From Arthrobacter sp. CDRTa11 (GTDB lineage Bacteria > Actinomycetota > Actinomycetes > Actinomycetales > Micrococcaceae), in contig NZ_CP044532.1 of the NCBI RefSeq assembly GCF_026427775.1, positions 4,526,001 through 4,590,000 of the forward strand: a stretch of DNA of 64,000 nt, read 5' to 3'. The position numbers and the translations under genes are program-made. Shown piece after piece: positions 13 to 15,943 of this stretch (position 1 is its first letter; each line of letters starts with the position of its first letter). The notes below the pieces were generated by a model that was not told where the DNA came from, did no database searches, and worked only from the letters and a program-made list of their open reading frames with translations.

Positions 13-1371
13 TCATTGTGGCCGGCGCAGGCTCGCCAGTACGGCCTTGGCGGCTCGCTCGCCCGAGGTCGCTGCGTCTGCTAGGGACGGCAGATCGAGC
101 TGATAGTCACCTGCGAGGTAGATAGTTCCGAGCGGATCACGCAACGTTGGAAGCGAGTTCCTTCGCCCGGGTGCCCAGAAGGGCACGACCCGACGGTGTC
201 GCCGCACGATGCCCTCGCCCAGCTTCCCCTCAAGCTCGGGGAACACCGTCAACAGGTCCTTCGTGAATCGTGACACGATCTCCTCGTCAGATAGGTCGAA
301 CAACGCGTCGGCCTGGGCGCCACCGGCGAAACAGGCGAGTGCTCCACCCGGCTCACGGTTGCCCCCGTTTCGCATCGCTGCGGCGTGGTTGAACATCGCC
401 TGGAACGACAATTCCGGCGTTGAGACGGCGAAGTAGTCGTCCCAACGCTGCGGCCCGACTTCGTCGGTGAAAAATCCGACTATCACATAACGCCCGTACG
501 TGATGTCGTTGAAAGCGTTCCGGTGCTGCTGCGAGAGGTGCGGGATAATCCGTTCGGCGACATCGCTGGGTGCAGTCACGATCGCGCGCTTCGCTCGCAG
601 CCGTGCCGGACGGTCACCGTCCTGGTAGTCAATGACCACGCCGTCGCCGTCCTGCCGCACAGATTGCACCACCGAGTTCAGCCGGATCCGGCCACCCAGG
701 TCCTGTACCAGTACGTCGGTCAGCGTCTGGTTGCCACCCACCGGCAGCGAGAAGTTCGGGATCTTCTCTGGGTCGGCCAGCGCGAGCCCCACCGACGTGA
801 CGAACTGGGTGGCTGCGGTCTCCTCCAACTCGCATCCCATCCACTGCGCCGACCACGACCGGACGAGGTTGTGGGCCAGTTCTGACCGGACGCCTTTGAG
901 CAGGTACGACCCCAGCTTGGTTTCGAGGTTGGCGCGCACCCGTTGTGCGATACTGCTCTGCGACTCGAGGAACGGCATGACCGAGAGAATGCGTGCGCCG
1001 ACAATGGCCATACCGATACGGTCCATCATGGTCATTCGCGTGCGAAACATCAGTGCGACGGGGTTCGACGTGTCGACCATTCCACCGTTAAGATACAGCG
1101 CGATGTTCTTGCCTGCGAGTGAGCCCATCTTGATGCCATGCCGATTAAGGGCTTCGATCAGCGTGCCCGTGCCCTCGGTGAACTGGGTGCCGATGTTTAT
1201 CCAGTAGTCGCCTTGCCGGACAGTCTCTACTCGTCCGCCGGTGCGATCTGTGGACTCGAGCACAACCACGTCGGTCTCCGGCGACAGTGTGGTAGCCGCT
1301 ATCAACCCCGCCATTCCTGCGCCGACGACGACCACCTCAACGGTCTCTTCCAGTACTTCCTGCGTTGTCAT
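13..1371 (-). CDS. Flavin-dependent amine oxidase-like protein
   Basis: Predicted cytosolic FAD oxidoreductase of the amine oxidase / protoporphyrinogen oxidase-like superfamily, 452 aa, a usual length for the family. The FAD-binding motif GAGMAGL lies at residues 17-23, the ribose-binding Glu at E39 and the GG doublet in DRTGGR at 42-47. A second FAD motif (GTIYLAGDY) lies near the C-terminus. The family oxidises amines to imines or aldehydes with H2O2 release, but the substrate cannot be read from sequence. The start is supported by AGGAG five bases before the ATG. It is the last gene of the minus-strand amine-catabolism run; 105 bases separate it from the membrane protein upstream. It could remove the first amine of the substrate or act as a desaturase-type enzyme. 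Confidence 0.85.
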   Translation of the reverse strand: MTTQEVLEETVEVVVVGAGMAGLIAATTLSPETDVVVLESTDRTGGRVETVRQGDYWINIGTQFTEGTGTLIEALNRHGIKMGSLAGKNIALYLNGGMVDTSNPVALMFRTRMTMMDRIGMAIVGARILSVMPFLESQSSIAQRVRANLETKLGSYLLKGVRSELAHNLVRSWSAQWMGCELEETAATQFVTSVGLALADPEKIPNFSLPVGGNQTLTDVLVQDLGGRIRLNSVVQSVRQDGDGVVIDYQDGDRPARLRAKRAIVTAPSDVAERIIPHLSQQHRNAFNDITYGRYVIVGFFTDEVGPQRWDDYFAVSTPELSFQAMFNHAAAMRNGGNREPGGALACFAGGAQADALFDLSDEEIVSRFTKDLLTVFPELEGKLGEGIVRRHRRVVPFWAPGRRNSLPTLRDPLGTIYLAGDYQLDLPSLADAATSGERAAKAVLASLRRPQ

Positions 1372-1476
1372 GATGACTCCTGACTCAAAACTTGTTTAGG
1401 GGAAGGTGCGGCGACCCTCGGCACCAATGAGTGACGACGTTCAGGGCCTCGGGGTAAGGGACGACGTCGACGCGGA

Positions 1477-2172
1477 TCATGCCGTAACGCGAGCGCTGCC
1501 GCTGACCGCCTGGTCGTCGACGCGATTGTTATAGGCGTCGAACACCCGGTAAGCGCGGTAGTACGCGAACATCTGCAGGCCCCATGTGGACAGCGCAAAG
1601 ATGTAGAAGATCGTGCGCTCCGCGTCGTCGCCCGGGATGTGGACGAAGTCGTACGTCGCGGCGATGACGAATCCGCAGGCCGTGGCAACGGCGGCCAACG
1701 CAGCGTGACCGCGCTCATTGATATCCCAGAGGCGCTTGACGAAGTAGATCAGGAAGATCGTGGTGAGCACGTTGACCACGATGTAGAAGATCTTGCCGGG
1801 GGTGCCGATCTCATCGGCGAACTGGCTGAGGAGCAAGCCGACCACTGTTGCGAAGGCGAACACGCCGACATCCACCTTCGCGGATGGCTTGTACCGGTGG
1901 GTGACCTTCATCAGTCCGAGGACGAGGATCAGCGTGATGCCGATGGACCGCGAGAAGGCGTCCAGGAAGTATGCGAAGGTGTACATTGGGCTGTCGTGAC
2001 CAGCTTTGAGGAGGCCGTAGATCAGGAAGTTGGTACCTGATGTTGCAACGACGATCCATTCGATGCCCAGCAGGTAGTTCTTGTGGTTTCGGATGAATTT
2101 GATCCCGTAGGTGAATCCTACGGCGATCATCCAGACGTCCGCGACCGCGAAAAGCAGCTCTCGGATAGACAT
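1477..2172 (-). CDS. Polytopic membrane protein of unknown function
   Basis: Protein of 231 aa that I do not recognise. It has about six or seven hydrophobic helices, starting near residues 5-25 and 35-55 and ending with a helix around 185-205. Short basic connectors such as KFIRNHKN lie between them, and the C-terminal tail is hydrophilic. It lacks an obvious transporter signature. AAGGAG six bases before the ATG supports the start. It lies between the PuuB-like oxidase and the flavin amine oxidase in the same run, so a role in uptake, sensing or membrane attachment for this pathway is plausible but only inferred from position. Confidence 0.7.
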   Translation of the reverse strand: MSIRELLFAVADVWMIAVGFTYGIKFIRNHKNYLLGIEWIVVATSGTNFLIYGLLKAGHDSPMYTFAYFLDAFSRSIGITLILVLGLMKVTHRYKPSAKVDVGVFAFATVVGLLLSQFADEIGTPGKIFYIVVNVLTTIFLIYFVKRLWDINERGHAALAAVATACGFVIAATYDFVHIPGDDAERTIFYIFALSTWGLQMFAYYRAYRVFDAYNNRVDDQAVSGSARVTA

Positions 2173-2248
2173 TGTTTTCTCCTTGGATGGTTAGTTCAGC
2201 CGATCGGCTGGGCGTCGAAGAAGCCGAGCAGAATGCTGGGGGCGCTAG

Positions 2249-3547
2249 TCATTTTGTGAAGGCTGCCAAGCGGTCGGACGCGCGGTCGGCAAGCCAGGCC
2301 GCGTACAGTGCGGGGCCGCCGACGAAACTGCGCGAGAAGCGCTTTCGGCCGTGCCAGATTGGGGCAAGGTCGTCGTGCAGCGGTGCGCCGGCGATCCGGT
2401 CCGCCAGCAGATGGCCCACGTATTGTGCCTGGGCGAATCCGTGGCCGTTGCAGGCGAGGGAGTACAGCACGTTGTCGGAGGCCTCGCCGGCCACGGGGAG
2501 CCACGTGGAGCTCATGCCAATCCACCCTCCCCAGGCTTTCTGCGGCTTAACGTCGCGCAGAGCAGGGAAGCGCTCGCGGAAACCGCGGACCAGGTCATCA
2601 GCGATGTTTCGCGCCGGAGTGCGGTCAGGCAGTGGACTCCGGCCGGTCTGCACGCGGCGGGTGCCGAAGACGATGGTGCCCCGCGGCGTGACGCGGTAGC
2701 TCTCGATGATCATGTGCAGGGTAACCATCGGGGCGCGGCTGGTCCAGCCGATCTCGTCAAGCCGCGCTGGTGCGACGGGTTCTGTCTCAACCAGGGAGGT
2801 CCACACCGGCGTCACGAGGTTCTTCGGCACGATGGAAAGACCAGCGCTGTCGGCGTTGGTCGTCAGCAGCGCCTTGCGAGCCCGCACCCTTCCATTCGGT
2901 GTCTCAACGGTGACACCGCCGCCAGCGTCCGTTACGTCCAGGGCAGGGGTGTGCTCGTAGACGCGCACCCCTGACGCGAGGGTTGCAGCCCGCAGGCCGA
3001 GAACGAACTCGCCCGGGTTGAGCGTGCCACCAACGCCCTCGCGCACTCCGCCCAGGAAGCCTTCCGGAAGGCCCGCTTCTCGGCCCTCGACGAATTTGGC
3101 AGACGAGCCGGCGGCGGCCATCACCTTCGCGTTGCGGCGCGCGTGCCCCAGCTGCCCCTTGGACACTGCGGCCATCACGATTCCTTCCTGCTGGTAGCCG
3201 CAGTCGATCTCGTGGTGGCTGATGGCGTCACCGGCGAAGTGCACCGCGTTTTCGGCGAACTTGTACAGCCTGCGCAGCCTCTCGGGCTTGAGCATTAGGC
3301 CCAGCAGCTCGGGATCGGCGGCGATCGAGTTCGTGATGTAGCCGGCGTTGCGGGAGCTGGCGCCCCAGCCGAGGGTCTGCGCCTCGAGGAGCACCACGTC
3401 AACGCCCTTTTCGATGAGACGGAGCGCGGCCGACATCCCGCCCCCGCCCCCGCCGATCACGACGACATCGCAGTCGATGTCACCCGTCAGAGGCTGTTCT
3501 GCGATGGCGGGCGGTTCTGCCCAACCCGTTTCGTGGATCAGTTTCAT
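2249..3547 (-). CDS. DAO-family FAD oxidase, gamma-glutamylputrescine oxidase (PuuB)-like
   Basis: FAD-dependent oxidoreductase of the D-amino-acid oxidase/glycine oxidase fold, 432 aa. The FAD P-loop is a run of six glycines at residues 32-37 after a CDVVVIG strand, the ribose-binding Glu is E55 (VVLLEA), and GASSRNAG at 62-69 matches the PuuB/OrdL subfamily. The subfamily oxidises the free primary amine of gamma-glutamyl-amines such as gamma-glutamylputrescine to the aldehyde. I place the start at the ATG at 3547 because AAGGAG lies eight bases upstream, overlapping the end of the hotdog gene; a GTG two codons earlier is too close to that site. A glutamine-synthetase-like ligase, an aldehyde dehydrogenase and a C26 hydrolase in the locus complete a Puu-like set. 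Confidence 0.82.
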   Translation of the reverse strand: MKLIHETGWAEPPAIAEQPLTGDIDCDVVVIGGGGGGMSAALRLIEKGVDVVLLEAQTLGWGASSRNAGYITNSIAADPELLGLMLKPERLRRLYKFAENAVHFAGDAISHHEIDCGYQQEGIVMAAVSKGQLGHARRNAKVMAAAGSSAKFVEGREAGLPEGFLGGVREGVGGTLNPGEFVLGLRAATLASGVRVYEHTPALDVTDAGGGVTVETPNGRVRARKALLTTNADSAGLSIVPKNLVTPVWTSLVETEPVAPARLDEIGWTSRAPMVTLHMIIESYRVTPRGTIVFGTRRVQTGRSPLPDRTPARNIADDLVRGFRERFPALRDVKPQKAWGGWIGMSSTWLPVAGEASDNVLYSLACNGHGFAQAQYVGHLLADRIAGAPLHDDLAPIWHGRKRFSRSFVGGPALYAAWLADRASDRLAAFTK

Positions 3548-3552
3548 TGTCA

Positions 3553-3927
3553 CTACTCCTTCTCGACTGCAGGGATGACCGCGGTGCCGCGAGCACGCAC
3601 CGCCACCAAGGGAGGCTCCAGGACTTGGGATCGGCCGGTGCCGTCGGAGGCCCGGCAGATGACGCGGAGCTCGAAGTCAACCGTGCGGCTGCGGTTGCCC
3701 TTCTTCACGAGCTTGGCCTCGGCCTCTACGACATCGCCGCCGCGGATGGCAGCGAGGAACTCGACAGACGAGTAACCGGCGAACAGGCCCTCGTGGCCGT
3801 CCTGCTCGATTGAAAGGTTCGTCCCGACGTCACCAAAGAGTTTCAGCGCGAAGGCGCCGTCGACCAGATTGCCCGCATAGTGCGCGTCGGAGAAAGCAAC
3901 GTAGCGCCGATGGACTGCTTTGCTCAT
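3553..3927 (-). CDS. Hotdog-fold beta-aminoacyl-CoA ammonia lyase-like protein
   Basis: Small protein of 124 aa with the hallmarks of the beta-alanyl-CoA / 3-aminobutyryl-CoA ammonia-lyase hotdog family known from amino-acid-fermenting clostridia. The seen motifs are SDAHYAGNLVDGA at residues 13-25, GDVGTNL at 32-38, then a YSSVEFLA strand, a GD-VEAEA strand and a C-terminal EPPLVAVRARGTAVIP strand. The family removes ammonia from a 3-aminoacyl-CoA to give an enoyl-CoA. Length agrees with the family (about 125-145 aa). GGAG precedes the ATG. Its start overlaps the monooxygenase stop (ATGA), which argues for translational coupling. A CoA ligase and a crotonase in the same run could supply its substrate and use its product. 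The assignment rests on motif recall, so the substrate is open. Confidence 0.78.
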   Translation of the reverse strand: MSKAVHRRYVAFSDAHYAGNLVDGAFALKLFGDVGTNLSIEQDGHEGLFAGYSSVEFLAAIRGGDVVEAEAKLVKKGNRSRTVDFELRVICRASDGTGRSQVLEPPLVAVRARGTAVIPAVEKE

Positions 3928-5588
3928 GAGATCTCCTGATGGATGGGGCCGAGGTGACGGGCACTTGCCTCGCCGTCAATCTGGACGCCGGGGTAGCCTC
4001 GCCTGGCGATCTCGGTGCACATCCGCCGGTACTTGCCGACACCGCCCAGATAGCCCATGAACGTGTTCGGCTTGCCCTCGATGTTGGAGCCGCGGTACCA
4101 GGAATCGGTAGTGGCATACAGGGTGGCGGCCACGGTCTCCTCCGAGATGTCCACCCAGTCGTTCTGCCCCTCGGCGGTGGCTTCAATCAGGGTCGCGCCG
4201 CAGTCACGGGCGTACTCGATGAGGTCGGCGATCCAGTCCACTGCCTGCTCGATAGTCACTACCACGTTGCTCGCCAGCGCAGGGCTTTGCGGGCCAGCAA
4301 CCATGAAGAAGTTGGGGAGGTCCGCGGTCATGATTCCGAGGTACGTGCGGACACCGTCGTGCCAGGCGTCCTGCAGCTTCTGGCCGGACGCGCCGGTGAG
4401 ATTGAGCCCGTACAACGGGCCAGTGAAGGCGTCGAAACCGATGGCGAGCACCACGGCGTCCGCCTCGTACGTCCCGTTGGAGGTGACGATCGCATTCGCC
4501 GTCATAGTCTCGATCGGCTCGTCGCGCAACGACACTAGTGACACGTTGGGCCGGTTGAAGGTCTCGTAGTAATCGGTTCCGAAGCAGCTGCGCTTGGCAC
4601 CCAGAGGGTGGTATTTGGGCACCAGGAGCTCGGCGGTGGCCGGATCCTTGACGATCTCACGGATCTTGTTGTGGATGAATTCCGACGCCGTCCGGTTCGC
4701 TTCGACGTCGGTGAGCAGGTCGGTGAACTCTGCGCCGACGCCGTTGAAACCACTGCGCTCGTAGGCCAGTTCGTAGCGACGCTGACGCTCCTCGGCGGAT
4801 ACATCAAGGGCCTTTTCGGTTGAGGGATGATCGGGGATGCCGCCGAGGGAGTGCCGGCACTCCTCGCGTATCGCATGGTAGTCACCCTTGATGGATTCGA
4901 CCTGCTCTGGGGAGAGTTCGGTGTTGCGGGCCGGCATCACGTAGTTGGGGGTTCGCTGGAATACCGTAACGTGCTCCGCGACCTCCGCGATCAATGGGAT
5001 GGCTTGCACACCCGATGATCCGGTTCCGATTACAGCGACCCGCTTGCCGGCGAGGTCGTCGAGTGCGATGTTCCATCGACTGGTGGACACCTGGAGTCCC
5101 GTGAAGTTTTTCAGGCCCGGCACGTCGAAGTCTTTGGGGGTGGAGAGCCCGCCGGCGCCCGAGATAAGGTACCGGCTGCGTCGGGTGTCGCCGTTGTCCA
5201 GCTGAACCTCCCATAGCCGGTCGGCCGCGTTCCACGTCGCACCGACCACTCGTGTATTGAACGTGAAGTGCTTGCGCAGGTCGAAGCGGTCGGCGACGTG
5301 GTTGATGTAGCTGAGGATCTCGGCCTGCGGCGCGAATCGTTGGCTCCACGTCCATTCCTGCTGGAGTGCCTTGTCGAATGAGTACGAGTAGTAGATGCTC
5401 TCGACGTCGCAGCGGGCGCCCGGATAGGTGTTCCAGAACCAGGTGCCGCCGACACTGGGTCCGGCCTCGAAGCCTGCGAAGGTCCACCCGGCCGTTGTGA
5501 GCCGGTGTGAGAGGTAGAGGCCGGCGTAGCCGGCGCCGACGCCGATGACATCGACGACACCAGTGTGGGAGGTGGAGGGGAAGTTCAT
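3924..5588 (-). CDS. Baeyer-Villiger-type flavin monooxygenase
   Basis: FAD- and NADPH-dependent monooxygenase of the Baeyer-Villiger type, 554 aa. The FAD site GAGYAG lies near residues 18-23, followed by GGTWFWNTYPGARCD at about 47-61, a strongly typical BVMO segment. The NADPH-binding site GTGSSG lies at 188-193. The BVMO fingerprint F-x-G-x3-H-x3-W is present at 162-172, but the His position holds Ser168 and the following Pro is Asn173. Such enzymes insert oxygen into ketones to make esters or lactones, and some relatives oxidise N or S atoms. It is the first gene after a 102-base gap in the run and overlaps the hotdog gene by four bases. A candidate operator lies just upstream (5611-5635). 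The ribosome site before the ATG is weak. Confidence 0.87.
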   Translation of the reverse strand: MNFPSTSHTGVVDVIGVGAGYAGLYLSHRLTTAGWTFAGFEAGPSVGGTWFWNTYPGARCDVESIYYSYSFDKALQQEWTWSQRFAPQAEILSYINHVADRFDLRKHFTFNTRVVGATWNAADRLWEVQLDNGDTRRSRYLISGAGGLSTPKDFDVPGLKNFTGLQVSTSRWNIALDDLAGKRVAVIGTGSSGVQAIPLIAEVAEHVTVFQRTPNYVMPARNTELSPEQVESIKGDYHAIREECRHSLGGIPDHPSTEKALDVSAEERQRRYELAYERSGFNGVGAEFTDLLTDVEANRTASEFIHNKIREIVKDPATAELLVPKYHPLGAKRSCFGTDYYETFNRPNVSLVSLRDEPIETMTANAIVTSNGTYEADAVVLAIGFDAFTGPLYGLNLTGASGQKLQDAWHDGVRTYLGIMTADLPNFFMVAGPQSPALASNVVVTIEQAVDWIADLIEYARDCGATLIEATAEGQNDWVDISEETVAATLYATTDSWYRGSNIEGKPNTFMGYLGGVGKYRRMCTEIARRGYPGVQIDGEASARHLGPIHQEIS

Positions 5589-5610
5589 TGATATTTCCGC
5601 TTTCGCTAGT

Positions 5611-5635
5611 GATCATCTGATTTAGTCAAATGATC
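5611..5635. promoter_or_regulatory. Candidate TetR operator upstream of the monooxygenase gene
   Basis: An outer inverted repeat, GATCAT at 5611-5616 and ATGATC at 5630-5635, encloses a 13-base core at 5617-5629. On the minus strand the core reads TTGACTAAATCAG. The same 13-mer with one change occurs directly upstream of the tetR gene at 11126-11138. This shared, spaced dyad suggests one regulator acts at both places. Operator function is inferred. Confidence 0.5.
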
Positions 5636-5690: not shown

Positions 5691-7148
5691 CTAGATAGGG
5701 AGGTCGGGAGAATCGACGCCGACCACACGGTCGCCGCAGAATACCCGGACCGCCTCACCAGGGGCGTGGCCACCGATTCCGGAAGCGCCCCAGAAGCTCT
5801 GGGCCGAACCTTCGCCGAGATCCGCGATCTTGGCACCGTTCACGCGGACCTCGCCCGACAACACCCGGGATCCGATACCTATGGCGCGCTCCAGGTCGCC
5901 ACCAAACACGTACGCGTCGAGGCCTGACGGGTTGGCATTGGCCGCGCGCAGTGCGTCCTCGTTGGACTCCACGGAATGGACGCTGACGAGCGGCCCGAAC
6001 AATTCGGCGGTCGCCACCGACGCGTCGACTCCCGAAGCCACAGTGGGCGAAAGGAAGAACCCGTCGAGCGCGGGGAGCTCCGCGGGCTGATGGATGGTCG
6101 CGCCGTGGGCCCGCAGGGCTTCGATCCGGCTCCGCAGCGTGGCGAAATGCGGGGCGTTCGAGATGGGTCCCAGTTGCGTGTCCTCGTCAAGCGAGTGCCC
6201 GATATCGACCTGAGAGATGCGGTCGGTCAGCGCGTCCAGGAGCGGCTTTACGAGCTTCTTGTGCGCCAGCACCTTCCCGGGGCCCTCACACCACTGACCG
6301 TTGAGCTTCGTCATCCCCTCGAAGATTGCGTCGGCGGCGACGTCAATGTCGGCGTCATCCAGCACGAGGGCCGGGTTGTTGCCGCCGAGCTCGAGCTGGA
6401 GCACCTTGAAGTCCTCCGCTGCCGCCCGGGCGATCGCGCGTCCGGCATTCGGGCCGCCTGTGAACGCGACGATCTTCACGCGATGATCGCCTGTGATCAT
6501 TGCGCCCACGTCGCCGGCCCCGTGGACGAGCTGCAACGCACCGTCAGGCAGCCCGGCCTGGACGAAGCAGTCAACGATAATTTGGGCGCTGCTCGGCGCG
6601 TGCTCAGAAGGCTTGAGGATGACGGGGCACCCGGCAGCCAGTGCGCTCACCGTCTTCGCGGCGGGGATAAAACTCGGGCCATTCCATGGGGTGAGGACCG
6701 CGGCCGGGCCCCACGGGACCTTGTACAGCCGCACATCGCGGCCACCGGCTTCCAGCGCCTTGCGACGCGGGATGGCCCGAAGTTCCGCAGCGGCAGAGCG
6801 GATCCTGTGCGGGAGGAATTCTGCGATCCTCCGGGCCCTCGCGATCGGGACGCCGCTGGTGAGGGCATCGGTGCGGGCGATGTCCTCGATCCGGGTCTCG
6901 ACGAGGGCGGCCGCACGCTCGATGACAGCTGCACGTTCCTCGCTGGCCGCCTCGTCCCAGCCCTCGAAGCTGTACGACCTCTCGGCATGACGCAAGGCGC
7001 GCTCCACGTCGTCCGGGCTGGTCGTGACGGCACGGTGGATGGGCTGCCCGGTGTTGGGGTCGAGATTCCAGGCGTCCTGGATCACGCGGCACTCGGACCA
7101 TTCGTCCGCGATGTAGTTGATCGGCTGCGGCAGTTGTGTGTTTGTCAT
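5691..7148 (-). CDS. NAD(P)-dependent aldehyde dehydrogenase
   Basis: Aldehyde dehydrogenase superfamily member of 485 aa, oxidising an aldehyde to the carboxylic acid. All core residues are visible: N156 in PWN, K179 in ILKPSE, the general base E253 in ELGG and the nucleophile C287 in NGQWCEG. The segment around the Cys is unusual (QWCEGP rather than GQxC), so the subgroup is not a standard betaine-aldehyde type. GGAGG seven bases before the ATG fixes the start. It follows the alcohol dehydrogenase by 48 bases and would take an alcohol-derived or amine-oxidase-derived aldehyde onward to an acid for CoA activation. The specific substrate is not readable. Confidence 0.88.
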   Translation of the reverse strand: MTNTQLPQPINYIADEWSECRVIQDAWNLDPNTGQPIHRAVTTSPDDVERALRHAERSYSFEGWDEAASEERAAVIERAAALVETRIEDIARTDALTSGVPIARARRIAEFLPHRIRSAAAELRAIPRRKALEAGGRDVRLYKVPWGPAAVLTPWNGPSFIPAAKTVSALAAGCPVILKPSEHAPSSAQIIVDCFVQAGLPDGALQLVHGAGDVGAMITGDHRVKIVAFTGGPNAGRAIARAAAEDFKVLQLELGGNNPALVLDDADIDVAADAIFEGMTKLNGQWCEGPGKVLAHKKLVKPLLDALTDRISQVDIGHSLDEDTQLGPISNAPHFATLRSRIEALRAHGATIHQPAELPALDGFFLSPTVASGVDASVATAELFGPLVSVHSVESNEDALRAANANPSGLDAYVFGGDLERAIGIGSRVLSGEVRVNGAKIADLGEGSAQSFWGASGIGGHAPGEAVRVFCGDRVVGVDSPDLPI

Positions 7149-8291: not shown

Positions 8292-8305
8292 CATCGTCTC
8301 CGATT

Positions 8306-9088
8306 TCAATTGCTCGTCGCGGGCGTCGTCGACGCCGCTTTTTTCGATGTCCAAAAGCGCTTTATGCCCTCGGTGAATGCGCCGGACTCCCACGACTCGC
8401 GGGCGGCGTTGTCTTCGCGGGTAAATGCGGCCTCGATGTCTTCAGGGCGCGGCCGCAGCAGATCCAGGTGCAGCGCGGTGGTGCGGGGATCGGAGTTCCA
8501 CTGCCTGAGTACCTCGCCAGCGCGGTCCAGCAGCGCCTCCGGGCCCACGATCTCGTCGAGAAGCCCGATCCGCAGGGCCTCGTCCGCGTTGATCCGTTCC
8601 GAGCCCAGGATGATTCGCATGGCGTGGTTGCGTACCAGACGGCCCATGAGGAAGCTCGAGGCGTTCGAAATGATGATCCCGCGGTGGTTCTCCGGCTGGT
8701 AATACTCGGCGTTTGGGGTGCCTATCCGGAAGTCGCAGGACAGGGTGACCTCCGAGGCTCCGCCCACCGCGATGCCGTTTACTGCCGCAACGACGGGGAC
8801 TTTCGTTTCAAGAATGGCCCGGGTGATGTCGTGGAAGCTGGCGAAGGCCTCGCGGACCTCGTCATACGAGCTCGGCACAGTCTGCAGGTCTTCGCCGGAG
8901 GAGAAGGCCCGACCTGTTCCCGTGAGTACGATCCCGCGGACGAGTTCACCCGCTCCGATCCGGCGGATCGTCTGAGCGAGCTCCACCCGGGTGAGCGCGT
9001 CCATTGCGTTTAGTTTCTCCGGGCGGTTCAGCGTGAGCACCGCCACGTCATGATCGATCTGCACATTCAGGTGGTCGTTGTCTGTCAT
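8306..9088 (-). CDS. Enoyl-CoA hydratase/isomerase family protein
   Basis: Crotonase-fold protein of 260 aa. The oxyanion-hole segment GRAFSSGEDL and the NGIAVGGASEVTLSCDFRIG core are clear, with Glu residues in ASE and PEN at the usual catalytic positions. The region after PEN reads HRGIIISNASSF rather than the standard G-x2-P-x2-G pattern, so true hydratase specificity is uncertain. The start is set by GAGGAG six bases before the ATG at 9088. It follows the CoA ligase by ten bases and precedes the alcohol dehydrogenase by fourteen. In this operon it could hydrate the enoyl-CoA made by the hotdog ammonia lyase to a 3-hydroxyacyl-CoA. Confidence 0.85.
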   Translation of the reverse strand: MTDNDHLNVQIDHDVAVLTLNRPEKLNAMDALTRVELAQTIRRIGAGELVRGIVLTGTGRAFSSGEDLQTVPSSYDEVREAFASFHDITRAILETKVPVVAAVNGIAVGGASEVTLSCDFRIGTPNAEYYQPENHRGIIISNASSFLMGRLVRNHAMRIILGSERINADEALRIGLLDEIVGPEALLDRAGEVLRQWNSDPRTTALHLDLLRPRPEDIEAAFTREDNAARESWESGAFTEGIKRFWTSKKAASTTPATSN

Positions 9089-9098
9089 GTCTTGCTCC

Positions 9099-10721
9099 TC
9101 AGTTGCCGCTGCCGACGGCTCGCGGCGGCTGCAGGTCGTAGGTGATGCCCGGATGCTCGGCGGAGCGGGCCTTGAGGGCTGGCTTCGACACGCGCTCCGA
9201 TGGGGTACGCGGGAAATCGGCGACGAACTCGACGTAGCGTGGAACCTTGAAGCGCGCCAGCTCTGTTCGCGCGGCGTCGATGATTCGCTCTGCGGTCGCA
9301 CGGGTTTCCTCAACGCCAGGGGCGAGCTGCACGACGGCTTTGACCTCCTCGCCGAACAGCTCGTCCGGAACGCCAATCACCGCCGCAGCGACGACGATGG
9401 CATTGCGCTCGAGGACGCGTTCGACCTCGGCGCTTGCGATGTTCTCCCCGCCGCGTCGGACCATGTCCTTGATTCGTCCTACCAGTCGGTAGCCGTCCGC
9501 CTCACGGACCGCGACATCACCAGTGTGCAGCCAGCCATCGCGGAAAACCTTCGCAGTGTCTTCCGGGCGGTTCCAGTAGCCGAGCATCATCGGCTTCCCC
9601 GATGTGATCAGCTCGCCGGGTTCTCCCACCGCAACTTCCCGGCCAGCCGGGTCGACCACCCGGATCTGCTTTGTGGGAACGGGCTGCCCCAGCCGTCCGC
9701 TGCCAACATCGCCCATGTTCTCGGGAAGGCTGATAAGATCCGCCCCGCTTTCGGTCATTCCGAAGATCTCCCGCCACGGTGCTCCCCAACGCTGTTCGAG
9801 CTGTGCGTGCAGCGCAACGGGGATTGCCGAACACAGCACTAGTCGCAAGTCGTTGTCCCGGTCCTCCGGGCTCGGCGCCTGCTTGAACAGAAGCGTGGGC
9901 ATTGAGCCGAGCACGTAGCAGAACGTCGCCTGGTGTCGGCGGACCTCCGCCATGAAACCCGAGGCGGAGAACCGAGGTAGCACCACCAACGTCGCGCCGA
10001 TCGTGAGGCACAAGGAGGTGTTCCACTGCGGATCCATGTACGAGAACGGCTGTGCGGTAAGTAGCACGTCATCCCGCCCGAGGCCTGCCGCGCTCGCGCA
10101 GATCCACCCCAGTCGGACCCAATAGTCGTGGTTCAGCATGCACGCCTTCGGAAATCCGGTGGTCCCCGAGGTGTACTGGAGGTTGGCGAGCGTCTCACCC
10201 GAGATGGCGACGGCGGGTGTGTCCGCCGGATACTGCGCGAGCTCACCGGGCGACGCGCCTTCAACGATCTGGATGTCCCCCAGATCACCATTTGCTGCGC
10301 GCACCTCTTCGACAAGGGGGGTGTGATCGGTGTCAGTGAACATTACCCGCGCGCCGGAGTCTCGGAGCACAAATTCCAGGTCGGCGCGCTGATACGACGA
10401 GTTCACCGGCACTGCAACGCCGCCGGCCTTGAGGATCGCAAGCCAAGCGACCGGCCATTGGACCACATTGGGCAGCATGATTGCGACGCGATCGCCAACG
10501 CTAATCCCGTTCTCAAAGATCAGGCGCTGTGCGAGACGAGACGTCCAGTCCTCGATCTCGCCGAAGGTCCAGGATCCTTCTGAGAACCGGAGAAACTCAC
10601 GGTCGGGACAGGTGAGCGCCTGGTTGGCCAGCAGGCCGAGGAGGGTATCGATCGGTGGGTCTATAGCCATCCGATCGACTGCCATCGCGCGTTGCCGGTG
10701 TGCTGATTCGACTTCTGTCAT
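9099..10721 (-). CDS. AMP-dependent acyl-CoA ligase, CaiC-like
   Basis: ANL-superfamily adenylating enzyme of 540 aa that makes an acyl-CoA from acid, ATP and CoA. The P-loop motif YTSGTTGFPKA, the GMTESGAD motif, the hinge region (GRIKDMVRRGGENI) and a C-terminal TPSERVSK motif are visible. The last replaces the common SGK motif and recalls carnitine/crotonobetaine-CoA ligase relatives. The start at 10721 has GAGGA seven bases upstream; the reading frame remains open further upstream but that part lacks family character. It is the first gene of the long minus-strand operon and faces the tetR gene across a 448-base gap. Activation of an acid, possibly a 3-amino acid, is inferred from the neighbouring ammonia lyase. 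Confidence 0.86.
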   Translation of the reverse strand: MTEVESAHRQRAMAVDRMAIDPPIDTLLGLLANQALTCPDREFLRFSEGSWTFGEIEDWTSRLAQRLIFENGISVGDRVAIMLPNVVQWPVAWLAILKAGGVAVPVNSSYQRADLEFVLRDSGARVMFTDTDHTPLVEEVRAANGDLGDIQIVEGASPGELAQYPADTPAVAISGETLANLQYTSGTTGFPKACMLNHDYWVRLGWICASAAGLGRDDVLLTAQPFSYMDPQWNTSLCLTIGATLVVLPRFSASGFMAEVRRHQATFCYVLGSMPTLLFKQAPSPEDRDNDLRLVLCSAIPVALHAQLEQRWGAPWREIFGMTESGADLISLPENMGDVGSGRLGQPVPTKQIRVVDPAGREVAVGEPGELITSGKPMMLGYWNRPEDTAKVFRDGWLHTGDVAVREADGYRLVGRIKDMVRRGGENIASAEVERVLERNAIVVAAAVIGVPDELFGEEVKAVVQLAPGVEETRATAERIIDAARTELARFKVPRYVEFVADFPRTPSERVSKPALKARSAEHPGITYDLQPPRAVGSGN

Positions 10722-11028
10722 GTGGTCCTCTTCGAATGTCTTAGGCGGCAGTGGGTTGGCCGTCCTGGATCGTCGGGCGGTCGTCGCGCTGCAGCAGAAC
10801 CATGGGGTCGAACATCCGACCTCGGGCCTCGGGCGCAGCCGACGTAGCGCCTCGAGAGCCATCGAGCTTAGGTTGGAGCTCCTGGGAAAACCTGCGGAGC
10901 TCTCGTCAACACTGCAGGTTAGGAAGCTGTTGTCCGCCGGCAGCATGGGTCCCTGCAGATCTCGTCCCCGCCGCTCGTAGCTACCGCCGTCACCACTTCG
11001 GGAATGTGATTTCAGTCATGACAATACC

Positions 11029-11067
11029 CCTTCATGGTCAATTGATCAAGGCAAATGACCATGAAGG
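11029..11067. promoter_or_regulatory. Perfect 12-bp inverted repeat, candidate operator
   Basis: CCTTCATGGTCA at 11029-11040 is perfectly repeated in inverse as TGACCATGAAGG at 11056-11067. The 15-base spacer contains the self-complementary TTGATCAA at 11042-11049. It lies in the divergent region between the ligase operon and tetR. It may be a regulator site or the leader of the minus-strand operon; which is not decided by sequence. Confidence 0.5.
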
Positions 11068-11124
11068 ATGTGCTCGATGAATTGCTGCGCCCTGTCGCTC
11101 GCGGTCGGGGGCTGGTAGCGTTTG

Positions 11125-11138
11125 GATTGACTCAATCA
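11125..11138. promoter_or_regulatory. Candidate TetR auto-operator
   Basis: GATTGA-C-TCAATC is a near-perfect dyad at 11125-11137, 32 bases before the tetR ATG. The overlapping string TTGACTCAATCAG (11126-11138) differs by one base from the core found upstream of the monooxygenase gene. The position suits autoregulation. Function is inferred. Confidence 0.5.
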
Positions 11139-11169
11139 GTCGTCCGTCCATGACCGCCAGGAGGAACCC

Positions 11170-11808
11170 ATGACTCGCATTCCCGCCGTAGAACGTCGCG
11201 CGGAACTGGTGGCGGCGGCTGTGCGCATGATCGCCGCCCACGGAGTGGAGGGAGCCACTACGCGTCGCATCGCCCAGGAGGCGAACGCCCCGTTAGCCAC
11301 GCTGCACTACTGTTTCGCCAGCAAGGAAATGCTGTTCGCGGCAGTCTTCGAATACGTAGCTGGGCAGTATCGTGAGGTATTGACGCGAAACGCTGTCCGT
11401 GGCGACGTCGAGACCACCGCGCGCGAACTGTTGCGCGGCCTGCTGGAATGGTACGTTGCAAATCCTGACGTCGGCCCGGCTATCGTCGAGCTGATCAGCT
11501 GGGGCCAGCGTCAGGAGGACAAGCAGGCCGAGCTGGTGTACAACGAGGCATTCGAGACCATGCGGCCGATCCTCCTGAACGCCGCGTCCTCTGCCGGCCA
11601 GTCGGTCGACCCTAGTACCATCGACGATCTGATCTATATCGTTTCCACATTGTCCGACGGATTCGCGCTGAACTGGCTAGTGTTCACCGACCGCGCAGCG
11701 GCGCTGCCACAGATCGAGCTCACCCTCGGCGTGCTCAACGCCTGGATGTCCGCGAACCTTGGCGATTCGTCTGAGCGTGGGGCCCGGGCTTCAAGGGCCT
11801 CAGCTTAA
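11170..11808 (+). CDS. TetR-family transcriptional regulator
   Basis: DNA-binding repressor-type protein of 212 aa. The N-terminal TetR helix-turn-helix spans roughly residues 10-56, with the characteristic VEGATTRRIAQEA and a LHYCFASKEMLF recognition-helix end. The C-terminal ligand-binding domain (about 70-200) is helical and not diagnostic. GGAGG five bases before the ATG fixes the start. It lies between the two minus-strand catabolic operons, divergent from the ligase operon and convergent with the C26 hydrolase gene. Operator-like dyads upstream of it and of the monooxygenase gene make it the likely local regulator. Confidence 0.88.
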   Translation: MTRIPAVERRAELVAAAVRMIAAHGVEGATTRRIAQEANAPLATLHYCFASKEMLFAAVFEYVAGQYREVLTRNAVRGDVETTARELLRGLLEWYVANPDVGPAIVELISWGQRQEDKQAELVYNEAFETMRPILLNAASSAGQSVDPSTIDDLIYIVSTLSDGFALNWLVFTDRAAALPQIELTLGVLNAWMSANLGDSSERGARASRASA

Positions 11809-11875
11809 GGAAATCATGCTTCCGCTCGTGTCCCCGGATGAGCCCGGGTGGATACCGCGCTGACAAGAAAGACAG

Positions 11876-11906
11876 CTGTGACCGCCACCCTTGGTGGCAG
11901 TCACAG
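11876..11906. terminator. Bidirectional hairpin terminator
   Basis: CTGTGACCGCCACC at 11876-11889 pairs with GGTGGCAGTCACAG at 11893-11906 with one wobble and a three-base loop. A/T-biased flanks (AAGAAAGA on the left) give a weak U tract on the minus strand. It sits between the convergent tetR and C26 hydrolase genes, where a shared terminator is expected. Confidence 0.75.
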
Positions 11907-11977
11907 TCTTGAAGATCCTGCCGGAACCGCTGGCGCCTCTCTACGATTCAGCACGGCGAACATCGCCGCTGCGTCGA

Positions 11978-12805
11978 CTAACCGTGCAGGTTGTCGCGTT
12001 CCGCCTCATGGTCATGCGGCGGAACGCAACTCCCTATCCGGCGGTTCCCCTCGATGACGATCCAGCTCAACGCCGGATCGTCGCGCTCCATCCATTCTGG
12101 ATGCCACTGGACGCCGAGCACCGCGGCCCCGGGCAGCTCTACCGATTCGACGACGCCGTCCCCCGCGCGCCCCGTGACCACCAGGCCCGTTCCGCAGCTG
12201 TCGACCGCCTGGTGGTGCCACGAGTTGGTCACAGCGCCTGCTCCGAACAGCCGTTCCGCGAGCGAGCCAGGCACGAACGTCACCTTGTGATCGTCGGCCC
12301 CGTCGAACGGCGCGGCCGAACCTGAAAGGTGCTCGACGGAGCCGTGCGGAAGGTCAGCGATCAGCGTGCCGCCCAAAGCGACGTTCAGGATCTGCAGGCC
12401 CCGGCACACCCCGAGGACTGGGATGCCCCTGGCGAGTGCGGCACGCACAAGCGCGATCTCGTACTCGTCCCGAGTTGCGTCGTGGACCATCGGATTATCG
12501 CGCGGATTCACGTCGCGGACCACCGACAGATCGCCACCCCAGCATGCGGGATGAACATCCTGGCCTCCGGTGATGACCACGCCCGAGAGCCAGTGGCAGA
12601 GTGCCTCCGGGTCGGCGTCATAGGGCAGATCCACCGGAATTCCCCCAGCCCTGGCGATCCGGTCTGAGAAGTCGGACATGAAGGCGTCAGCGAACAGATG
12701 ACCGTAGCGCTGGTCCATTCCGTCGACCAGGCCCAGCCGAAACCGTCGGCCGGTGACGCCGATGAGTGGCCGGATGGTGCCCGTCGTCGTGCTGCATGAG
12801 CTCAC
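11978..12805 (-). CDS. Class I glutamine amidotransferase-like gamma-glutamyl hydrolase (peptidase C26, PuuD-like)
   Basis: Protein of 275 aa of the C26 peptidase family, which cleaves gamma-glutamyl bonds and includes PuuD (gamma-glutamyl-GABA hydrolase). The nucleophile Cys is in GVCRGLQILN and the His-Glu pair is in VQWHPEW, so the triad is complete. N-terminal PLIGVTGRR is also typical. It uses a GTG start that overlaps the stop of the glutamine-synthetase-like gene (GTGA), so the two are probably translationally coupled. With that ligase it would attach and later remove a gamma-glutamyl group that protects an amine during oxidation. The substrate is inferred only as an amine. Confidence 0.86.
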   Translation of the reverse strand: MSSCSTTTGTIRPLIGVTGRRFRLGLVDGMDQRYGHLFADAFMSDFSDRIARAGGIPVDLPYDADPEALCHWLSGVVITGGQDVHPACWGGDLSVVRDVNPRDNPMVHDATRDEYEIALVRAALARGIPVLGVCRGLQILNVALGGTLIADLPHGSVEHLSGSAAPFDGADDHKVTFVPGSLAERLFGAGAVTNSWHHQAVDSCGTGLVVTGRAGDGVVESVELPGAAVLGVQWHPEWMERDDPALSWIVIEGNRRIGSCVPPHDHEAERDNLHG

Positions 12806-14154
12806 GGGAACTCAAAGTATCGTGTCGACTCCCATTCCGAGAGCTCGGCGAACGGATCGCCGCCAGCGGTGTGAAACTGCATCCACTCCCACCGGCGCGT
12901 ACCCACCCAGTAGTCGACGAACTCATCGCCGAGTTGTTCACGCAGGATCGGGTCCGCTTCCAGAGCAGCGGCTGCCTTGGTGATGGTATCCGGCAAGCGC
13001 TCGAGGTCGGGCGCACACCAGGCCATATCGCTAACTGGCTGGGGAGGCTCAATCGAGCCGTCCAAGCCGGCGCACACTCCGGCGAGAATGGCAGCAACCG
13101 CGAGGTACAGGTTTGCGTCCGCTCCAGGAACTCGGTACTCGAGCCGCGAGTATTCCGGGTGCCCGCATACGGCCCGCACCGCGGTGGTCTTGTTGCTGAT
13201 GCCCCACGTGACCGTCGTCGGCGGGCCGCTCAGATCGACCAGACGGCGGTACGAGGTGATCTGCGGGAGCACAATCGAAGTCGCACCCTGCATCGTTGCT
13301 AGGAGCCCGCCAATTGCGTGCCGCATCGTTGACGAGGGCCCGTCCTCGGCGTAGAACGCATTCACCCCGTCGCGCTGCAAGGACAGGTTTACGTGCGAGG
13401 CCTGGCCGTATCCGGCAGTCGGCTTGGCCATGAAGGTCACGGTGTGACCGAGTTCGAAGGCCACCTCGCGCATTACCTGCCGGGTGCGAGCCCAGGCATC
13501 GCAGACCAAGATCGGGTCACCGGGGGTTAGGTTGAGTTCAACCTGACCAGCTGCGTCCTCGTCGCTCCACGCCTCCCACTCGATGCCGATCTCGTCAAGG
13601 CGACGGGAAACGGCCGACATATAGTCGATCCAGTCCTTGGATTTCGCGAGGTGGTACGCGGTTCCGGCAGAGCCGCCAAGCGGGGTGAGGTCGCGATATC
13701 CCTTGGCGCGGGCCTCGTGGATGGACTCTTGGAATAGTGTCGCCTCGATCTCGACGGCTACAGTGGCCGTAAAACCGAGGCTTCCGACTCGCTCAACCAG
13801 TTTTCGGGCCAGGTTACGTGGACAAATTCCGACCGGGGTGCCGTCCGCTTGCCAGTAGTCACCGATCACGGACTGCAGGCCAGGTTCCCACTGCACCAGC
13901 GTCGACATATCGGGCCGGAACTGGACGTCGGCCAGGTGCCCACGCCAGTCGGGGTAGGCAAATCCGAAGGTGGGGACATTGCCTAGGTCCAGGCCGAACA
14001 GGAGATCGGCGAACGCAAAGCCCGAGCCTGCGTTCGCCGCAAACTTCTTGGGGGCGAGGTTCTTGCCGAGAAATGAGCCCTCGTGATTGGTGGCCTCGAG
14101 CCGAACTGTGTGGACGGCGTCCTGGTCCATCGAAGTGGTGGTGATTTCAGACAT
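12802..14154 (-). CDS. Glutamine-synthetase-like gamma-glutamyl-amine ligase
   Basis: Glutamine synthetase fold protein of 450 aa, likely joining glutamate to an amine using ATP as PuuA, IpuC and AtdA1 relatives do. Visible active-site features are EIEATLF (metal-binding Glu pair), a DAAGQVELNL strand and KPTAGYGQASHVNLSLQ, the counterpart of the GS K-P-x-x-G-x-x-G-S-x-H-x-H loop with its second His replaced by Asn. That change, the length and the C26 partner argue against a housekeeping GlnA. The ATG lies within the end of the SCP2-like gene (eight-base overlap), with AAGG upstream. It forms a three-gene operon with the SCP2-like and C26 genes. Confidence 0.84.
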   Translation of the reverse strand: MSEITTTSMDQDAVHTVRLEATNHEGSFLGKNLAPKKFAANAGSGFAFADLLFGLDLGNVPTFGFAYPDWRGHLADVQFRPDMSTLVQWEPGLQSVIGDYWQADGTPVGICPRNLARKLVERVGSLGFTATVAVEIEATLFQESIHEARAKGYRDLTPLGGSAGTAYHLAKSKDWIDYMSAVSRRLDEIGIEWEAWSDEDAAGQVELNLTPGDPILVCDAWARTRQVMREVAFELGHTVTFMAKPTAGYGQASHVNLSLQRDGVNAFYAEDGPSSTMRHAIGGLLATMQGATSIVLPQITSYRRLVDLSGPPTTVTWGISNKTTAVRAVCGHPEYSRLEYRVPGADANLYLAVAAILAGVCAGLDGSIEPPQPVSDMAWCAPDLERLPDTITKAAAALEADPILREQLGDEFVDYWVGTRRWEWMQFHTAGGDPFAELSEWESTRYFEFP

Positions 14155-14821
14155 TGTAACGAACCTTCCAGGATGCGCCGACCATGACCGACAGCTGAGA
14201 GAGCGTTCCGCGTACGCCGATCAGCCCGGTGGAGAGGGCGGCGATCAGGTCGTCGGCGCCCGAGAAGATACCAGCCAGTCCGTCAGGAGAACCAGCAATT
14301 ATATACTGCGTATCGCCCTCGCCAACGACCAGCTCAGACAGCCCGTCGGGGCCGTGCGCGATAGCCACGAGTACGTCGGGGATCCCCGGTACCGCTCGCG
14401 CTGCGGCCCAGAAGGTCTCGGCGGCGACCTGCCAGTCGGGCAGCGGCGGGGACAGCAGTGCCAGCGCGGTGGCAGCGAGGTCGCCGTGACCTTCGCCAAC
14501 AACAGGCGCGCCGGACAGGGCGAACCGCCCGTTCAGGTCGACGACCAGGGTTACGTCAGGGTCGACGAGTACACCGCTCGATACCGCAACGACCCCGTTC
14601 GAGATGTTAACTGTCGCAGCCTGTGGGGTGTCGTGCGAGCGGACAGCGAAACTGCCATCCACCGCCTCCACGATGGAGTCTGCACGGTTCGCACGGATGG
14701 AATCGGCAATCGTGCGGCCGACCAGCCGGACGATCGGACTAGCATCGTCCTCAATCCGTATGTCGACCCCGCCGACCGGATCGGCCTCGCGTGTCGCGTG
14801 GCCGATTGTCGTTTCGGTCAT
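14147..14821 (-). CDS. SCP2-like protein, first gene of the gamma-glutamyl operon
   Basis: Acidic 224-aa protein with no catalytic motif that I recognise. Two stretches recall SCP2 sterol-carrier folds: a DVTLVVDLNGRFALSG-type strand pair near the middle and a C-terminal IAGSPDGLAGIFSGADDL...GTLSQL segment ending at the stop. SCP2 domains bind acyl or other hydrophobic ligands. I set the start at the ATG at 14821 because a purine-rich AAAGGACAAGAGG run precedes it; the open frame extends further upstream without family character. It overlaps the ligase gene by eight bases, so it is probably made with the ligase and hydrolase as an accessory or substrate-binding subunit. The SCP2 call is tentative. 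Confidence 0.6.
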   Translation of the reverse strand: MTETTIGHATREADPVGGVDIRIEDDASPIVRLVGRTIADSIRANRADSIVEAVDGSFAVRSHDTPQAATVNISNGVVAVSSGVLVDPDVTLVVDLNGRFALSGAPVVGEGHGDLAATALALLSPPLPDWQVAAETFWAAARAVPGIPDVLVAIAHGPDGLSELVVGEGDTQYIIAGSPDGLAGIFSGADDLIAALSTGLIGVRGTLSQLSVMVGASWKVRYNV

Positions 14822-14914
14822 CCTCTTGTCCTTTCGTTTCAACGAGACCCTGCGCGCGGTAGGCGTCAGCAGCGGATCCCAAGGGAAGCATGAGTTCATA
14901 GTCGTTCGACCGAC

Positions 14915-14932
14915 TTGATCATGTGATTATGA
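14915..14932. promoter_or_regulatory. Weak operator-like site between divergent operons
   Basis: The string TTGATCATGTGATTATGA lies between the SCP2-like gene and the divergent esterase gene. It shares the TTGA-n-TCA arrangement with the dyads near tetR and the monooxygenase gene but departs in the middle. It is listed as a possible weaker site of the same regulator. Confidence 0.25.
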
Positions 14933-14980
14933 TGGTGAGGTACAGATCACTTTTTGTCAATGACTGCGAAGGTAACCGAG

Positions 14981-15943
14981 ATGGACGACAACGCCCCCAA
15001 GTGGTGGAATCTGCTCGACGAGGATGCCAGGGCTGCCGCCCGGATGATTAACCATGTCCTGCCCAAACCCCTCCATGAGCTGGGAGCGGAGCAGGCGCGG
15101 ATGCTCCTGGATACAGCTCCATCCATCGAGCCGATCACACCGCTTGCCCAAGTCGAACAATTGACCGTGCCGACCCGCGCGGGTACGATCCGGGCTCGCT
15201 TGTACCGCGCGAACGACGCTCAAGACGGCGGCAGGCCCGCCGTCGTCTATCTGCATGGCGGAGGTTTCGTCCTTGGAACTATGGACGGAGCAGACGAGCT
15301 GTGCCGTGCGATTGCCGCCGGATCCGGATGGACGGTCGTGTCCCTGGATTACCGCCTGGCTCCGGAAAACCCGTACCCGGCGGCACTTGAAGACTGCCTC
15401 GACGCCTACGCATGGCTGACCGGAAAGGCACCGGAACTCGGTATTGATCCGGAACGGGTCGCTGTGGGGGGTGACTCTGCCGGTGGCAACCTCGCCGCTG
15501 CCCTCTGCCTCCATCGACGCGACGAGGGCAGCCCCCTGCCCGTGACTCAAGTGCTCGCATACCCTGCGGTCGATGGGACATTTTCCATGCCGTCGTGGTC
15601 GGAATTCGCCGATGCACCGCTGTTGAGTACCGCGGACGCGCGCTGGTTCTGGAACCTATACGTCGGCCCGGGACACCGGGCGGACGATCATCTCGCGGCT
15701 CCTATGCGCGCCAAGTCACTGTGCGGCCTGCCGCCGGCACTGATCCTGACTGCGGAGGTTGACCCTATCCGAGACGACGCCGAGGCGTATGCAGCACGGC
15801 TGCGGCATGACGGCGTCCCCGTCTCGCTAACCAGGTATGCCGGCGTATTTCACGGTTTCATCACTGAGATCGGCGCGTTCGTGCAGGCAAAATGGGCGGT
15901 CGAAGAAGTCTGCCTCCACCTGCGGGAGGTCTCCCGGGCATAG
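14981..15943 (+). CDS. HSL-family alpha/beta-hydrolase (esterase)
   Basis: Carboxylesterase of the hormone-sensitive-lipase family (family IV), 320 aa. The oxyanion-hole motif YLHGGGFVLG, the nucleophile elbow GDSAGGN, the acid residue in EVDPIRDDAE and the His in GVFHGF are all present, so it should be active. I chose the ATG at 14981 because AAGG lies eight bases upstream; an ATG at 14960 and a TTG at 14954 are in frame but lack a ribosome site. It is divergent from the gamma-glutamyl operon. A BVMO in the same locus makes esters or lactones, so this enzyme could hydrolyse that product, which would then enter the alcohol and aldehyde dehydrogenase steps. That link is inference. Confidence 0.87.
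   Translation: MDDNAPKWWNLLDEDARAAARMINHVLPKPLHELGAEQARMLLDTAPSIEPITPLAQVEQLTVPTRAGTIRARLYRANDAQDGGRPAVVYLHGGGFVLGTMDGADELCRAIAAGSGWTVVSLDYRLAPENPYPAALEDCLDAYAWLTGKAPELGIDPERVAVGGDSAGGNLAAALCLHRRDEGSPLPVTQVLAYPAVDGTFSMPSWSEFADAPLLSTADARWFWNLYVGPGHRADDHLAAPMRAKSLCGLPPALILTAEVDPIRDDAEAYAARLRHDGVPVSLTRYAGVFHGFITEIGAFVQAKWAVEEVCLHLREVSRA

Follow-up and report, generated by a model that had tools for sequence, protein, structure and literature searches.

We found that a gene cluster at positions 13-15943 of a 64,000-nt stretch from Arthrobacter sp. CDRTa11 (NZ_CP044532.1, 4,526,001-4,590,000; hereafter the window) forms a real and conserved unit that is probably co-regulated. We propose, with a probability of about one half, that it encodes one catabolic pathway in which glutamate would protect the nitrogen of an amine while Baeyer-Villiger chemistry shortens the carbon skeleton, a plausible new combination of known chemistries. 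A single pathway is supported by conserved linkage, a common operator and the joint loss of a Baeyer-Villiger monooxygenase (BVMO) and an esterase of the hormone-sensitive-lipase family (HSL). Direct observations are co-occurrence, gene order, the common palindrome, and BVMO and HSL having been lost together and apparently replaced; each reaction is inferred from enzyme families and linkage. A first-pass annotation had suggested a novel amine pathway at this locus. Its pairing of gamma-glutamylation with Baeyer-Villiger chemistry is supported; the order of steps and the substrate stay conjectural.

The cluster (Table 1) contains all four enzyme types of the gamma-glutamylputrescine (Puu) pathway of E. 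coli: a glutamine-synthetase-like ligase (GS), a flavin oxidase (PuuB-like), an aldehyde dehydrogenase (ALDH) and a C26 hydrolase (C26). It also encodes a flavin amine oxidase (AO), the BVMO, HSL, a zinc alcohol dehydrogenase (ADH), a CaiC-like acyl-CoA ligase (LIG), a hotdog protein (HD) and a crotonase (ECH). Pfam/NCBIfam profile and structure matches confirmed every enzyme that the first-pass annotation had placed here; its gene list was sound for the genes it named but lacked the TetR regulator, a tandem SCP2-fold protein, a membrane protein (MEM) and an MFS transporter. The minus-strand genes are transcribed in the order SCP2-fold protein, GS, C26; LIG, ECH, ADH, ALDH; and BVMO, HD, PuuB-like oxidase, MEM, AO, with TetR and HSL on the plus strand. 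The SCP2-fold protein, GS and C26 genes overlap by 8 and 4 bases, and those of BVMO, HD and the PuuB-like oxidase by 4 and 1. The longest open reading frames of ADH, ECH and LIG overlap one another, and internal ATGs at ~8294, ~9088 and ~10721 remove this overlap.

We identified a 23-bp palindrome between TetR and LIG that did not occur in any of 100 shuffles. A matrix derived from relatives gave further matches before BVMO (5612, 29.0 bits) and before MFS (L001:17807, 27.8 bits); the match between the SCP2-fold protein gene and HSL (14905) is weak, at 15.8 bits compared with 16.7 for the best of 20 shuffled windows. Across 55 stretches we counted 100 matches of at least 20 bits, of which 94 lie upstream of a cluster gene and six are orphans. 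TetR would control the cluster operons through this common palindrome. One of the orphans (L001:1050; genome ~4509050, 29.5 bits) stands ~17 kb from AO, before a beta-oxidation operon that encodes an acyl-CoA dehydrogenase, a thiolase, a ligase and a FadB-like protein; genes for isocitrate lyase, malate synthase and transhydrogenase come after the operon.

A search anchored on HD gave 26 loci, each taken as a 20-kb stretch, in 25 named genomes from Nocardia, Rhodococcus, Hoyosella, Antrihabitans, Gordonia, Mycobacterium, Tsukamurella, Haloechinothrix, Streptomyces and Amycolatopsis. All 26 contain LIG (truncated in L015, where the stretch ends), and in 24 the gene directly upstream of HD is an intact orthologous BVMO. 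Twelve further stretches from these genomes recovered many genes absent from the 20-kb stretches, including HSL, GS and MFS. In a second sample of 301 genomes from one family (that of G463), we counted 17 HD (74-94% identity), 14 BVMO (72-91%) and 14 GS (at least 78%) orthologues. BVMO and GS occur in the identical 14 genomes, all within the HD set (Fisher p 2e-24, relatedness ignored). At a GS cut of ~65% the set also includes G463 and G464, together with five genomes that have no HD. Thus the expectation that the genes would co-occur in relatives, on which the first-pass annotation had staked its proposal, holds. The third HD genome without BVMO, G658, carries a degraded locus (L097), in which HSL and the PuuB-like gene are fragmented, BVMO is a short remnant, and HD, MEM and AO match at full length.

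Within the family to which the window's genome belongs, HD, BVMO and GS were each found in 1 of 149 genomes, namely that of the window (cut-offs 1e-8, 1e-180 and 1e-100, respectively), although Rhodococcus koreensis proteins are 77-93% identical to those of the cluster. Horizontal acquisition therefore looks like the simple reading of these sequence comparisons. By database names, at least two other Arthrobacter-like strains carry single cluster genes (P0003, P0309).

Two loci carry HD without an intact BVMO orthologue. Mycobacterium sp. PS03-16 (L024) retains only BVMO fragments ahead of an intact HD gene, and the orthologous BVMO is absent from the locus of Tsukamurella sp. PLM1 (L025). Searches of these two whole genomes gave a best BVMO match of 48% in one case and none at 1e-60 in the other, and no HSL orthologue, with a best match of 42% in one and none at 1e-60 in the other. 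HSL orthologues (60-82%) were found in 9 of 11 genomes tested, and both genomes without HSL also lack an intact BVMO orthologue. In their place, both L024 and L025 have an alpha/beta hydrolase from a different family and, next to it, FMO2, a distantly related class B monooxygenase. This adjacency recurs in Gordonia and in all six stretches of a related cluster type (type II, below), and FMO2 has the canonical BVMO fingerprint in L024 and L055. Gordonia (L055) also has the BVMO and HSL orthologues; in L055, the genes for FMO2, the hydrolase and another amine oxidase overlap within one operon, next to PuuB-like, MFS and MEM genes. These data suggest that BVMO and HSL catalyse consecutive steps with an ester between them, since oxygenase and esterase were lost together and replaced by an unrelated pair, which makes an ester the likely intermediate.

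The BVMO matches phenylacetone monooxygenase (PAMO, 1w4x) over residues 12-535 (E 4e-156). It is nearest to PAMO and the steroid monooxygenases, with cyclohexanone monooxygenases next. The fingerprint [A/G]GxWxxxx[F/Y]P[G/M]xxxD is present as GGTWFWNTYPGARCD, and 25 of 25 sequences conserve the Asp and Lys-Arg motifs that align with those of PAMO. At the fingerprint His, by contrast with FxGxxxHxxxW[P/D], Ser is found in 120 of 120 closest homologues (the best 120 of 7,878 matches); among outgroup BVMOs, His is present in 8 of 11 and absent in 3. Ser likewise replaces His in one of these outgroup enzymes (L105, Gordonia asplenii, 44% identity), and the substitution may thus predate the clade or have occurred repeatedly. 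The pattern of the first fingerprint is that of PMC4498894, where, in the available text, the BVMO set was curated by the His motif; His-less enzymes would therefore be left out of such surveys.

HD probably eliminates ammonia from a beta-aminoacyl-CoA, as judged by its homologues. It aligns over 116 residues with the beta-alanyl-CoA ammonia lyase 4mtu (E 3e-19) and over nearly the whole of NF052388, the 3-aminobutyryl-CoA ammonia lyase (KAL) profile. Both of two tested relatives at 54-57% identity pass the NF052388 cut-off, and of two neighbourhoods of such relatives that we examined, both contain lysine 5,6-aminomutase genes and one a diaminohexanoate dehydrogenase gene, which strengthens the earlier view of HD as an aminoacyl-CoA lyase. 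Actinobacterial clusters with lysine 5,6-aminomutase subunits were seen at L066 and L067, the former also with a KAL-type lyase and diaminohexanoate dehydrogenase, so genes of the lysine-fermentation type do occur among Actinobacteria. GS scores below both the curated GlnA model (161 vs 429 bits) and the gamma-glutamylputrescine synthetase model NF045547 (165 bits, cut-off 650). It has Phe and Gly where the GS paralogue of the same genome (1.94 Mb) has the Asp and Glu that we take to serve the ammonium site and the flap, respectively. The window's SCP2-fold protein matched no Pfam or NCBIfam family at 1e-3; PF02036 (SCP2) matches one of its homologues (P0117), and SCP2 chains lead the structure matches of its predicted model (pLDDT 84), which gives the SCP2 fold. 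ECH could be a hydratase or, by analogy with BvaB as portrayed in the available part of PMC4619459, an ammonia lyase where HD is missing, because both crotonase Glu residues are kept in 37 of 37 aligned matches. Many database records of MEM homologues bear the name 'transporter'.

In the proposed pathway, MFS and/or MEM would move the amine or a product, and GS, perhaps supplied with a hydrophobic amine by the SCP2-fold protein, would form the gamma-glutamyl amide. AO and/or the PuuB-like oxidase would convert another amine carbon to a ketone, BVMO would insert oxygen next to it to give an ester, and HSL would split this ester. The alcohol fragment would be oxidized to an acid by ADH and ALDH, and C26 would remove glutamate to yield a beta-amino acid such as beta-alanine or 3-aminobutyrate. 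LIG would then form the CoA ester, HD would eliminate ammonia and ECH would hydrate the enoyl-CoA. From a gamma-amino ketone, the beta-amino acid would arise via the 'normal' ester followed by hydrolysis, oxidation and deglutamylation, and from a beta-amino ketone directly via the 'abnormal' ester. The enzymes would suit a small amino ketone of the gamma or beta type, or a diamine or cyclic imine that yields such a ketone; a more hydrophobic substrate is conceivable in view of the SCP2 fold and the nearby beta-oxidation operon.

Besides the window's type (type I), we found two further cluster types; Rhodococcus koreensis DSM 44498 has both type I and type II. Type II (L089-L094) has SCP2-GS-C26-LIG-ECH-ADH-ALDH, FMO2 with its hydrolase and a PuuB-like gene in all six stretches, AO or AO2 in four and MEM in four; these counts may be too low where a stretch ends or a gene is broken. 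Of three type II proteins tested, two, from two stretches, were identified as amino-acid permeases. HD is absent from the type II stretches, and no HD match was found genome-wide at 1e-20 in G550, G631, G518 and G615, which carry type II only. The 3-amino-acid end that had been suggested for the pathway would therefore belong to the window's type and not to the core. In type III (L095, L096, L098, L101-L103; GS 47-61%), SCP2, GS, ADH and C26 are contiguous in five of six stretches, with ALDH nearby in all six (27-32%), a class B monooxygenase in four and an HSL homologue in three. SCP2, GS, C26, ADH and ALDH thus occur in all types examined. The glutamylation module and the two dehydrogenases, for alcohol and aldehyde, make up the constant part; the types differ in the oxygenase-hydrolase pair and in how the route ends. 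Such joint retention in relatives is expected if glutamate protects the nitrogen during carbon-chain oxidation. We tentatively extend this to a general strategy, in which gamma-glutamylation would N-protect amino ketones for Baeyer-Villiger shortening in a superfamily of at least three actinobacterial cluster types; these would share the SCP2-fold partner, GS-like ligase, ADH, ALDH and C26, and swap the monooxygenase-hydrolase pair by lineage, with the window's type ending in CoA-dependent ammonia elimination and using a His-less BVMO clade. An extra gene of the nitronate-monooxygenase (NMO) family is present in eight loci (for example L003:13840-14820 and L025:11509-12576), sometimes with its own operator match.

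Several observations weigh against the proposal of N-protection with Baeyer-Villiger shortening. The second fingerprint reads FTGLQVSTSRWN, with Ser for His and Asn for P/D, so by the strict motif definition the enzyme counts as a BVMO-like homologue and not as a BVMO, and the one line of support for its putative Baeyer-Villiger activity is the gene swap. Two genomes show that swap, perhaps as the outcome of a single event, and in L025 the stretch ends within the hydrolase and the FMO2 match is split in two. HD, at 155 bits, falls 5 bits short of the KAL cut-off of 160, and we therefore call it KAL-like rather than KAL. LIG and ECH are retained in type II clusters that have no HD, so a beta-amino acid is not necessarily the substrate of LIG. 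The model finds a function for every conserved gene, except that the role of MEM is a guess and that one of the two amine oxidases is surplus. Finally, the orphan operator match at L001:1050 hints at a fatty-acid product.

This last point is the strongest hint for a different scheme, which we consider unlikely, in which an oxidase converts a hydrophobic amine to a ketone, and BVMO and esterase release a fatty acid and a gamma-glutamylated amino alcohol. LIG, ECH and the nearby beta-oxidation operon, with isocitrate lyase and malate synthase beyond it, would consume the fatty acid, HD would have a side role, and the SCP2-fold protein would bind a lipid-like substrate. The tandem SCP2 fold agrees with this, as does the retention of LIG and ECH where HD is missing. 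However, the orphan is a single site, and the TetR beside the beta-oxidation operon is dissimilar to the cluster TetR. The amino-acid permease genes of type II suggest a small polar substrate. The scheme also gives no explanation for HD, an intact copy of which is found at 26 of 26 loci anchored on it (by construction), including two that lost BVMO.

The presence of all four Puu enzyme types, and beta-alanine being the classical substrate of the HD relative 4mtu, could also point to a Puu-type diamine pathway (for example 1,3-diaminopropane to beta-alanine to acryloyl-CoA) run by GS, the PuuB-like oxidase, ALDH, C26, LIG and HD, while BVMO, HSL and AO serve another compound. We regard this as improbable, given that BVMO and GS orthologues share the same 14 of 301 genomes and that types I and II each have a monooxygenase-hydrolase pair, whether retained or exchanged, with a class B monooxygenase in four of six type III stretches. 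The genome moreover has a second GS/C26/ALDH set near 4.49 Mb (L002). Together with the fact that the Puu route is not known to need a BVMO or esterase, this set also speaks against the plain putrescine role raised in the first-pass annotation.

The cyclohexylamine route it had likewise considered fares worse. AO, BVMO, esterase, ADH and ALDH are all in the cluster, and AO matches cyclohexylamine oxidase remotely (E 2e-6), as a route from an alicyclic amine by amine oxidase through cyclic ketone, lactone and hydroxy acid to a dicarboxylate would have it. But GS, C26 and HD would be peripheral and go unexplained, the SCP2, GS, C26, ADH and ALDH set of all examined types is not needed, and the BVMO is closer to phenylacetone and steroid than to cyclohexanone monooxygenases; we consider this route very improbable. 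Least credible of all is that the 'BVMO' is an N-oxygenase of the amine or imine nitrogen whose nitro product the NMO homologue of some loci handles: the Ser of the 120 closest homologues listed and the NMO-family genes (operator matches upstream in four cases) are compatible with it, but the NMO homologue's best NCBIfam match is FabK (245 bits, below cut-off), FMO2 with a canonical fingerprint and a hydrolase stands in for BVMO and HSL, and some outgroup BVMOs also lack the His while the PAMO-aligned motifs are conserved.

N-protection with Baeyer-Villiger shortening resembles several known systems. The Puu pathway has the same four enzyme types and handles the amine as a gamma-glutamyl amide, but is not known to include a BVMO, esterase, zinc ADH, CoA ligase, ammonia lyase or SCP2 protein. 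The mymA operon of mycobacteria combines BVMO, HSL-type esterase, zinc ADH and acyl-CoA ligase, and differs in that it is not known to contain GS, C26, amine oxidase or hotdog lyase. The lyases represented by NF052388 and 4mtu are hotdog proteins homologous to HD; unlike lysine fermentation, the window cluster has no aminomutase or cleavage enzyme, and its HD lies beside a BVMO. In Streptomyces coelicolor, ethanolamine use via GlnA4 is proposed to run from gamma-glutamyl alcohol through aldehyde and acid, then by hydrolysis, to the free amino acid, with a cluster that, as described in the available part of that article, has a short-chain dehydrogenase and no BVMO, esterase or CoA steps (PMC6529630). 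In the isopropylamine and aniline/1-naphthylamine routes a GS-like enzyme makes glutamylated intermediates, and the aniline system has a GAT-like hydrolase; according to the available excerpt, the chemistry on the aromatic amines is that of a dioxygenase, not Baeyer-Villiger (PMC11335346). The beta-valine route shares a CoA ligase followed by ammonia elimination from a beta-aminoacyl-CoA, but its lyases are crotonase-type, and glutamylation is not described in the accessible portion of the source (PMC4619459). There is also a chemical precedent: N-protected beta-amino ketones were tested with ten BVMOs, PAMO included, and when the ester was hydrolysed a beta-amino acid and a beta-amino alcohol were obtained, as far as the available text goes (PMC7986699).

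If the proposal is true, glutamate N-protection would be joined with Baeyer-Villiger chain shortening, a pair not found together in the literature searched. Physiological BVMO substrates are widely unknown, according to the part of PMC4498894 available; one BVMO would gain a genetic context, a regulon and a natural gene swap. The His-less BVMO clade and the SCP2-GS partnership would become testable, with possible use in making beta-amino acids.

Table 1 Features of the cluster, with window positions unless marked as genome positions.
Feature	Position	Strand	Basis
AO, flavin amine oxidase	13..1371	-	PF01593, 135 bits
MEM, multi-helix membrane protein	1477..2172	-	without Pfam/NCBIfam family; AlphaFold model helical
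PuuB-like FAD oxidase (DAO family)	2249..3553	-	PF01266, 181 bits
HD, hotdog protein, probable beta-aminoacyl-CoA ammonia lyase	3553..3927	-	NF052388, 155 bits; 4mtu, E 3e-19
BVMO, type I, putative; clade with Ser for fingerprint His	3924..5588	-	PAMO 1w4x, E 4e-156
Operator-like palindrome before BVMO	5612..5634	.	29.0 bits; best of 20 shuffled windows 16.7
ALDH, aldehyde dehydrogenase	5691..7148	-	PF00171, 346 bits
ADH, zinc alcohol dehydrogenase, start inferred	7197..8294	-	PF08240, PF00107
ECH, crotonase, start inferred	8306..9088	-	PF00378
LIG, CaiC-like acyl-CoA ligase, start inferred	9099..10721	-	PF00501; PRK06155 best NCBIfam, 358 bits, cut-off 722
Operator palindrome between TetR and LIG	11037..11059	.	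32.6 bits; 0 matches expected, 100 shuffles
TetR regulator	11170..11808	+	PF00440
C26, gamma-glutamyl hydrolase, PuuD family	11978..12805	-	PF07722, 173 bits
GS, glutamine-synthetase-like gamma-glutamylamide ligase	12802..14154	-	PF00120, 260 bits
UNK, tandem SCP2-fold protein	14147..14821	-	start inferred from homologues
Weak operator-like site between UNK and HSL	14905..14927	.	15.8 bits, inside shuffle range
HSL, hormone-sensitive-lipase-family esterase	14954..15943	+	PF07859, 251 bits
MFS transporter gene, just outside the window, after AO	genome 4524187-4525785	-	

A methionine synthase gene with B12 domains (window 16393-20043, minus strand) adjoins the cluster and is perhaps an old chromosomal neighbour. 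A Hachiman anti-phage pair lies close by (window 20268-24357, plus strand; HamA 277 bits, HamB 1411 bits), and GC content dips to ~0.53 at 24-28 kb of the window.

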